From: Solirubrobacterales bacterium
GTDB taxonomy: Bacteria; Actinomycetota; Thermoleophilia; Solirubrobacterales; 70-9
DNA: 64,000 nt
Reading direction: 5' to 3'
Assembly (NCBI GenBank): GCA_023958085.1
Contig: JAMLGI010000001.1
Location: forward strand, 1-64,000
Position 1 is the first letter of the stretch. Each line of letters starts with the position of its first letter. The notes under the pieces were generated by a model, which had not been told where the DNA came from, did no database searches, and worked only from the letters and a program-made list of their open reading frames with translations. This document shows positions 2,746 to 53,202 of this stretch, piece by piece. Both the position numbers and the translations under genes were made by a program.

Positions 2746-2748
2746 CTC

Positions 2749-2870
2749 GGAACCACCAGAACGACGCCTGCCGCGTCACCACGGTCGGGATGACCGACTC
2801 GTGTACGTGGGTACTGTCGCCGGCCATCCCAACCGGGCTTCTTGCATCCGTCGCCCTGGAGGTCCCGAGT
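2749..2870 (-). repeat. Structured intergenic repeat family 2, copy A1
   Basis: A degenerate copy of the family described at 2881-3020. Outer arms are 2756-2766 and 2849-2859 (CCAGAACGACG with CGTCGCCCTGG). Inner arms are 2782-2792 and 2825-2835 (CGGTCGGGATG with CATCCCAACCG). Both stems differ in sequence from copy A2 but largely keep pairing. The copy starts directly after tRNA-Ile. Strand is given relative to the conserved module in copies B and C. Confidence 0.75.
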
Positions 2871-2880
2871 GTTGGCGGGC

Positions 2881-3020
2881 ACCGCCCCGGAACCACCAGA
2901 GCGGCGTCTGCGGCGTCACCCCGGACGGGACGAACAGCTCATGTACCCACGTACTATCGCGGCCCGTCCCGTCCGGGTTCCTTGTATCCATCCGCTCTGG
3001 CGATCCCGGTGCAGCACCCG
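2881..3020 (-). repeat. Structured intergenic repeat family 2, copy A2
   Basis: Positions 2881-2920 are the reverse complement of a 40-nt module also found at 10740-10779 and 53130-53169, with one mismatch. Nested inverted repeats follow. The outer arms are 2896-2904 (CCAGAGCGG) with 2992-3000. The inner 12-bp perfect arms are 2920-2931 (CCCGGACGGGAC) with 2966-2977. A small palindrome GGTGCAGCACC lies at 3008-3018. A further partial copy continues at about 3030-3070. No coding sequence is credible here. The gap 2746-3260 therefore holds repeats only. Confidence 0.85.
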
Positions 3021-3075
3021 GGGTTTGTCGTCGGCCATCCCGACCGGGCTTCCGGCATCCACCCGCCACAAACCA

Positions 3076-3193
3076 TTCTGGAGCCGATTTAGGCTGTATA
3101 GCCGCCACAATCGGCTCCAGAACGGGAGCGGGTACGCGATTTTCGGTTCTGGAGCCGATTTAGGCGAAATGGCCGCCACTATCGGCTCCAGAA
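3076..3193 (-). repeat. Paired 47-nt hairpin repeat (family 1), locus 1
   Basis: Two 47-nt hairpins at 3076-3122 and 3147-3193 with identical arms TTCTGGAGCCGAT and ATCGGCTCCAGAA, each enclosing 21 nt. The spacer between them is 24 nt. The same doublet, in the opposite orientation, occurs at 21669-21786 and 34523-34640 with identical dimensions. It lies between tRNA-Ile and the 3' end of ddl. Strand is relative to the other two loci. Confidence 0.95.
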
Positions 3194-3260
3194 TGGTTGG
3201 AGGGGGGCCGGTTGAGGGCGCGCTCGTTCGAGCCGGGGGTCCTCCGGGTCCTCCGGAGTC

Positions 3261-10543: not shown

Positions 10544-10576
10544 ACCAGACCCGGCTTCACCGATGAGATGTTTGTC

Positions 10577-10779
10577 CCGTCCGGGTGACGCCGCAGACGC
10601 CGCTCCTTTGATGGTTTTCCGAGCGGACGGTCCAATACGCGGGTGCTGCACCGGGACCGTCCAGAGCGGATGGATGCAAGGAACCGGGAGGAAACGGCCC
10701 GCGATCGTACCCACGTACCTGAGCTGGTCGTTTCCTTCCGGTGACGCCGCAGACGCCGCTCTGGTGGTTCCGGGGCAGT
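10577..10779 (+). repeat. Structured intergenic repeat family 2, copies B1 and B2
   Basis: Copy B2 spans 10661-10779. Its outer arms are 10661-10669 (CCAGAGCGG) with 10756-10764, and its inner 13-bp arms are 10684-10696 with 10729-10741. The inner arm sequence differs from copy A2 but still pairs, with one G-T wobble. The conserved 40-nt module is 10740-10779. Copy B1 (10577-10662) is partial: it has the module start, then arms GGACGGTCC at 10625-10633 with 10654-10662 around a GGTGC-T-GCACC palindrome. The 257-bp gap holds only this repeat and the promoter of the next gene. Confidence 0.85.
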
Positions 10780-10788
10780 GCCCGCCTC

Positions 10789-10794
10789 TAGACT
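10789..10794 (+). promoter_or_regulatory. -10 box TAGACT, leaderless gene start
   Basis: TAGACT, then 6 nt, then ATG at 10801. The box lies 10 bp beyond the conserved repeat module, so the module would occupy the -20 to -60 zone of this promoter. Confidence 0.55.
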
Positions 10795-21668: not shown

Positions 21669-21786
21669 TTCTGGAGCCGATAGTGGCGGCAATGTCGCCC
21701 AAACCGGCTCCAGAACGGGGAGGGCGAGGTCACCTTCGGTTCTGGAGCCGATAGTGGCGGCTATTTGGCCACAACCGGCTCCAGAA
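21669..21786 (+). repeat. Paired 47-nt hairpin repeat (family 1), locus 2
   Basis: Hairpins at 21669-21715 and 21740-21786 with a 24-nt spacer and 71-bp period. Arms are TTCTGGAGCCGAT and ACCGGCTCCAGAA. Loop cores carry small inner stems (GGCG/CGCC in the first, TGGC/GCCA in the second). It sits after a terminator and 70 bp before tRNA-Phe. Confidence 0.95.
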
Positions 21787-34522: not shown

Positions 34523-34640
34523 TTCTGGAGCCGATTGTGGAGCCTATGTGGCCAAAACCGGCTCCAGAACGGTTGTGACTTCATCCCCCTGCCTTCTGGA
34601 GCCGATTGTGGAGCCCATGTGGCCTTTATCGGCTCCAGAA
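34523..34640 (+). repeat. Paired 47-nt hairpin repeat (family 1), locus 3
   Basis: Hairpins at 34523-34569 and 34594-34640 with a 24-nt spacer and 71-bp period, as at the other two loci. Cores read TGTGGAGCC-YATGTGGCC in both copies, so these two are closer to each other than to copies elsewhere. It lies between the methyltransferase pseudogene and the 3' end of sucD. Confidence 0.95.
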
Positions 34641-53063: not shown

Positions 53064-53169
53064 GCTTCGAGGGGAGACCTGTCAGTCGCATGGAGCGACA
53101 AAGCTCCCCTCGATGGCCGGGCGGCCTTCGGTGACGCCGCAGACGCCGCTCTGGTGGTTCCGGGGCAGT
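53064..53169 (+). repeat. Structured intergenic repeat family 2, copy C (hybrid)
   Basis: The 40-nt module at 53130-53169 is identical to that at 10740-10779. Upstream of it, the variable stem is replaced by a new hairpin: TCGAGGGGAG (53067-53076) with CTCCCCTCGA (53104-53113), enclosing a second stem GTCGC-N5-GCGAC at 53084-53098. The distal outer arm CCAGAGCGG is missing in this copy. Confidence 0.8.
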
Positions 53170-53202
53170 ACTCGCTCTCTGTGAGCGACGTCACGCAAAA
53201 CA

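Follow-up and report, generated by a model that had tools for sequence, protein, structure and literature searches.

Palindrome doublets in the window

The DNA analysed here, referred to as the window, is a stretch of 64 kb from a Solirubrobacterales MAG (G000; 2.44 Mb, 31 contigs, 95% complete). Between positions 2073 and 4193 it carries bfn and ddl in tandem with a tRNA-Ile gene between them; in most relatives the two genes are convergent, and the region is a local rearrangement. The same gap contains the first of three hairpin doublets (A, B and C), which consist of the following parts:

3040 to 3075 (outer limit approximate), minus strand: doublet A, right flank, G-rich (family consensus CGGTTNGGGG)
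3076 to 3122, minus strand: doublet A, hairpin 2, 47 nt (direct reading, pattern and profile)
3123 to 3146, minus strand: doublet A, spacer, 24 nt
3147 to 3193, minus strand: doublet A, hairpin 1, 47 nt (direct reading, pattern and profile)
3194 to 3230 (outer limit approximate), minus strand: doublet A, left flank, C-rich and belonging to the outer inverted repeat, with CCCCNAACCG beside the hairpin (43-locus consensus)
21669 to 21715, plus strand: doublet B, hairpin 1
21716 to 21739, plus strand: doublet B, spacer, 24 nt
21740 to 21786, plus strand: doublet B, hairpin 2
34523 to 34569, plus strand: doublet C, hairpin 1
34570 to 34593, plus strand: doublet C, spacer, 24 nt
34594 to 34640, plus strand: doublet C, hairpin 2

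A sequence-only reading of the window had placed the doublets at 3076-3193, 21669-21786 and 34523-34640. These coordinates proved exact, and the 47-nt hairpins, 24-nt spacers and 71-bp period that it reported were verified for all three. Its claim that doublet A is inverted relative to B and C also held, the asymmetric core orientation assigning A to the minus strand. The left arm was correctly given as TTCTGGAGCCGAT, but the right arm needed a small correction, as it is sometimes ACCGGCTCCAGAA, with one mismatch. At up to two mismatches, TTCTGGAGCCGAT matched the window 18 times against 2.06 expected, a number reached by none of 100 shuffles. In each hairpin TTCTGGAGCCGAT on the left and AYCGGCTCCAGAA on the right enclose a core of 21 nt, whose consensus is roughly [TA]GTGG[CA]GGC[CT]ATNTCGCCTAA. 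In this consensus GTGG, the apical AT and GCC are near-invariant and the remaining positions variable. Rfam covariance models at the gathering score matched nothing in the window except tRNAs, hence no known family covers the hairpins.

The flank consensus drawn from 43 loci revealed an outer inverted repeat that is common to the loci, C-rich upstream and G-rich downstream, and fades over about 60 nt. Over the 20 nt ahead of the doublet, C accounts for 49% and G for 17%, with the mirror image after it, and these flanks are present at convergent, tandem and divergent gene settings alike. The consensus (CCG / CGG) contains no GTAG/CGTC tag. In a locus-by-locus comparison, own flanks paired no better than flanks taken from different loci (permutation p about 0.5 to 0.9), which indicates that the flanks are a shared consensus and not a case of locus-specific covariation. 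The idea that the spacer arose by simple tandem duplication of the flank was rejected, the similarity being weak only (downstream p 0.009, upstream p 0.003). Compensatory changes in the inner stem were not found across the copies, as is expected if the sequence of the double-stranded DNA counts more than pairing. Single-stranded folding of the doublet A region gave -98.2 kcal/mol for RNA (z -10.2 against shuffles) and a z of -9.4 for DNA. The predicted minimum-energy form pairs the two 47-nt units with each other in a single long hairpin, with the spacer close to the tip; two separate hairpins per doublet are a possible predicted form.

Copies and genomic context in the host genome

The strict hairpin pattern occurred at 58 places in G000, compared to 0 for the reversed control. 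A hairpin covariance model, followed by a weight-matrix rescan of the stretches around its matches and with contig C29 left out, yielded 44 loci, namely 28 doublets and 16 singles. With singles at only 16 of the 44 loci, the predominance of single hairpins that would have refuted a fixed doublet unit did not occur, and the fixed spacer length with free sequence noted in the window applies genome-wide: the period is 71 bp in 23 of the 28 doublets, 70 bp in three, 72 bp in one and 69 bp in one, hence never more than 2 bp off, while mean spacer identity is 32%, where composition alone predicts 28%. Within a doublet the two cores point the same way (head-to-tail), and the hairpins resemble each other beyond chance (z about 5). 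The simplest account of the single hairpins would be recombination between the two direct repeats. The excluded contig C29 duplicates part of C7 (44600-53400) and ends exactly at a hairpin, probably as an assembly break or strain variant.

The copies do not resemble two other known types of repeat. A CRISPR array consists of near-identical repeats with several unique spacers, whereas here no locus has more than two repeats, the 44 loci are scattered and the cores vary. DNA uptake sequences have many unpaired copies of a short word: in the window and in the G000 regions around matches, the arm at 0-1 mismatch was present only in hairpins.

All 43 loci scored with a simple codon-based gene caller were intergenic; the genes on either side were convergent at 17 of them, tandem at 20 and divergent at 6. 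A Pfam scan of 40 neighbouring proteins identified no transposase, and the neighbours were mostly ordinary chromosomal genes. The named relatives determined by SucD are Solirubrobacterales MAGs, including 67-14 and HKST-UBA63. The syntenic intergenic regions examined in relatives contain no G000-type hairpins and are mostly shorter. The rsmI-metG gap measures 216 bp with its doublet and 19-84 bp in the genus where the genes are adjacent, and the ddl-bfn gap 699 bp, including the tRNA gene and other repeats, against 13-87 bp in most relatives. No clean empty site was alignable base by base to give an exact joint, and no target duplication was seen. In the ddl-bfn region of G001 and G011 (L110, L111), different hairpins occupy the place of doublet A; they have different arms and a common apex GTCGC..TTCGC..CTCCCCATCCAGAGG, and a related motif is present in G013 (L113).

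A common spacer subfamily was found in four doublets of G000 (C3:180214, C17:17462, C10:18304 and C14:33351). In the closest pair among them 23 of 24 spacer bases are equal and the upstream flanks are unrelated, as would be expected had the dimer been copied whole; gene conversion would look identical.

Related families and possible helical spacing

The arms TTCTGGAGCCGAT were absent from 17 genomes of the same genus and from every other genome searched. The G000 hairpin pattern had no copy in genome_contigs, where this genome's own records were possibly excluded, and the IMG/VR viral contigs contained neither the G000 nor the G022 arm set. One weak match, L037 in G029 (another genus of the same family), combines the same core with other arms and an adjoining second hairpin; the heterodimers of G029 are present in two copies with a spacing of 62.0 bp and related spacers. 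Arm-agnostic models (R2 and R3), which place made-up random complementary arms around real cores and served as search profiles only, detected such hairpins in 27 of 201 Solirubrobacterales genomes, mostly as singles. Across the order the hairpins have other arms and a similar apex. Weak matches to the first model in G025 and G027 (L039, L040) were discarded as unlike the family and near-identical to each other; they are probably coding sequence. In G132, 22 matches were obtained, many of them equal-scoring, and L294 comprises two different hairpins about 170 bp apart, perhaps as one longer repeat. Scanned de novo over roughly 140-200 kb apiece, G003, G010, G018, G020, G027 and G109 yielded no comparable doublets.

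A scan without core information first uncovered a separate high-copy doublet family in G022, which represents a third genus beside those of G000 and G029. Its arms are GTGAGGCGGAT, and the strict pattern for them occurs at 62 places. Twenty-one doublets are spaced at 51 bp and three, one with a decayed partner, at 61 bp, with no other values; the spacers of 8 or 18 nt differ in sequence. The orientation is head-to-tail in 15 of the 16 classifiable doublets, and the flanks are likewise C-rich upstream and G-rich downstream.

The spacings of 51, 61-62 and 71 bp are separated by steps of 9 to 11 bp, or roughly one B-DNA turn. Jitter in G000 amounts to one or two bases, and the sole larger shift, in G022, is exactly 10. 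The earlier proposal that a protein or structure measures the distance agrees with the spacings in G000 and with their quantisation at 51 and 61 bp in a second genus. This pattern suggests that both palindromes are read from one face of the double-stranded DNA helix, a double-stranded reader being favoured mainly because RNA or single-stranded DNA gives no evident reason for a 10-nt step. The ladder is based on two high-copy families and one low-copy family and is suggestive, not proven; as only two genomes carry many doublets, few independent spacings lie behind it. A second family of G022, with arms ACGTTCAGCCC, core TTCGAAAAACG and centre spacings of 58, 62, 61 and 62, is off the ladder, so that not every hairpin pair is phase-locked. 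Its loci are:

L231: 16824-16926
L232: 9474-9580
L242: 11343-11449
L246: 13139-13244

Interpretation and comparison with known repeats

The best overall explanation, which we regard as about evenly poised between right and wrong, is a REP-like head-to-tail dimer that is helically phased and moved or bound by a putative protein. In this reading the element is non-coding, amplified and intergenic, and usually takes the form of two imperfect palindromes of 47 nt, arranged head to tail inside the C-rich/G-rich outer inverted repeat. Its spacing would be held near whole helical turns, about 5, 6 or 7 (51, 61-62 or 71 bp), in which case one protein complex most likely makes contact with the two palindromes together, along a single face of the double-stranded DNA. 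This putative complex, a transposase or recombinase acting in trans, would copy or convert the dimer between intergenic sites. The copy number, geometry, orientation and intergenic placement, the recurrence in other genera with other arms, the lack of a detectable Y1 transposase and the spacers common to loci with unrelated upstream flanks are observations; the acting protein, its reading of double-stranded DNA (not of single-stranded DNA or RNA) and the mobility are inferred.

Helical phasing, strict arm conservation, the intergenic position of every scored locus and the likeness of the hairpins within a doublet would equally suit a non-mobile DNA-binding site serving the host (nucleoid, gyrase or SMC type), at which a dimeric protein bridges the phased palindromes while selection and gene conversion keep the copies alike. 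We consider this unlikely, given that the arms are lacking in 17 same-genus genomes and the high-copy form is present in few genomes of the order, a patchy occurrence unusual for a housekeeping site, and that the syntenic regions examined in relatives lack these hairpins. A role at the RNA level, as bidirectional terminator or 3'-end protector, is decidedly unlikely, although stable hairpins preceded on both strands by a tract rich in C and poor in G resemble a Rho-type signal, in accordance with the mirrored flank composition, the very stable fold (z -10) and the location of 17 of 43 loci between convergent genes. A 10-nt spacing step is unexpected for RNA, the hairpins have no following U tract, six loci were called divergent, and doublet B is already preceded by a separate intrinsic-terminator-like stem with a T-run.

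REP/REPIN doublets, named by the sequence-only reading as the nearest known parallel, retain that place (PMC3116915, PMC3733652, PMC8266576); the involvement of a RAYT was not supported. An ordinary RAYT/REPIN system, its transposase lost or missed through an assembly gap or a divergent Y1, would account for the features shared with REPINs (PMC3116915), namely the dimeric unit, the constant spacer length and the intergenic habit. It would also accommodate the predicted folding of the whole doublet into one long hairpin, which may be a REPIN-like alternative and counts against the helically phased, protein-bound dimer. Such a system is nevertheless improbable: PF01797 (Y1/RAYT) had no match in G000 (95% complete, hence a gap is possible), G022, G029, G067 and G132, with control genomes positive, the GTAG/CGTC tag is absent, and the dimers are head-to-tail instead of inverted. 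No candidate for the acting protein was found.

REPINs are REP doublets that form hairpins and, like the doublets described here, they are short intergenic palindromes with the doublet as the likely unit and a spacer that keeps its length while its sequence drifts; unlike these, they are inverted and tied to RAYTs, whereas here each hairpin is palindromic by itself, the cores are head-to-tail and no RAYT was found (PMC3116915). For GTAG/CGTC REP dimers, the portions of the account considered here give head-to-tail dimers as absent or rare and describe no quantisation of spacing by about 10 bp, and the doublets of G000 differ from them also by the missing GTAG/CGTC tag (PMC3733652). With REP/BIME and TnpA-REP of E. 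coli they share an imperfect palindrome with internal mismatches and many intergenic copies, but BIMEs pair a REP with an inverted REP, carry a GTAG motif and are accompanied by a TnpA-REP gene (PMC8266576). The element resembles a REPIN, yet is not one by definition, as the tag, the Y1 gene and the inverted dimer were not found. Its classification as a REP-like dimeric palindromic element with helically phased head-to-tail geometry, recurring in another genus with unrelated stems, has in our judgement an even chance of being correct. Possible, though rather doubtful, is an undescribed Solirubrobacterales class of dimeric palindromes with replaceable stems, a conserved apex and whole-turn spacing, spread by an enzyme that acts on double-stranded DNA and is unrelated to RAYTs. 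Literature searches on helical phasing of intergenic palindromes and on REP elements in Solirubrobacter or Thermoleophilia retrieved nothing relevant. REP-type repeats are widespread, and most of what has been established about their spread and their readers comes from RAYT systems, whose action is on single strands. A different machinery, one that reads double strands, would be indicated by a head-to-tail dimer that follows a spacing ladder of about 10 bp where no RAYT is detectable.

Other repeats were also observed. The window contains interspersed repeats at 2748-3020, 10563-10791 and 53125-53180, with BLAST depths of up to 12, 10 and 5 among the G000 stretches compared, and a longer repeat with GAGCGGATGGATGCAAGGAA follows some of the single hairpins (C1:479867, C4:93895 and C7:104006).
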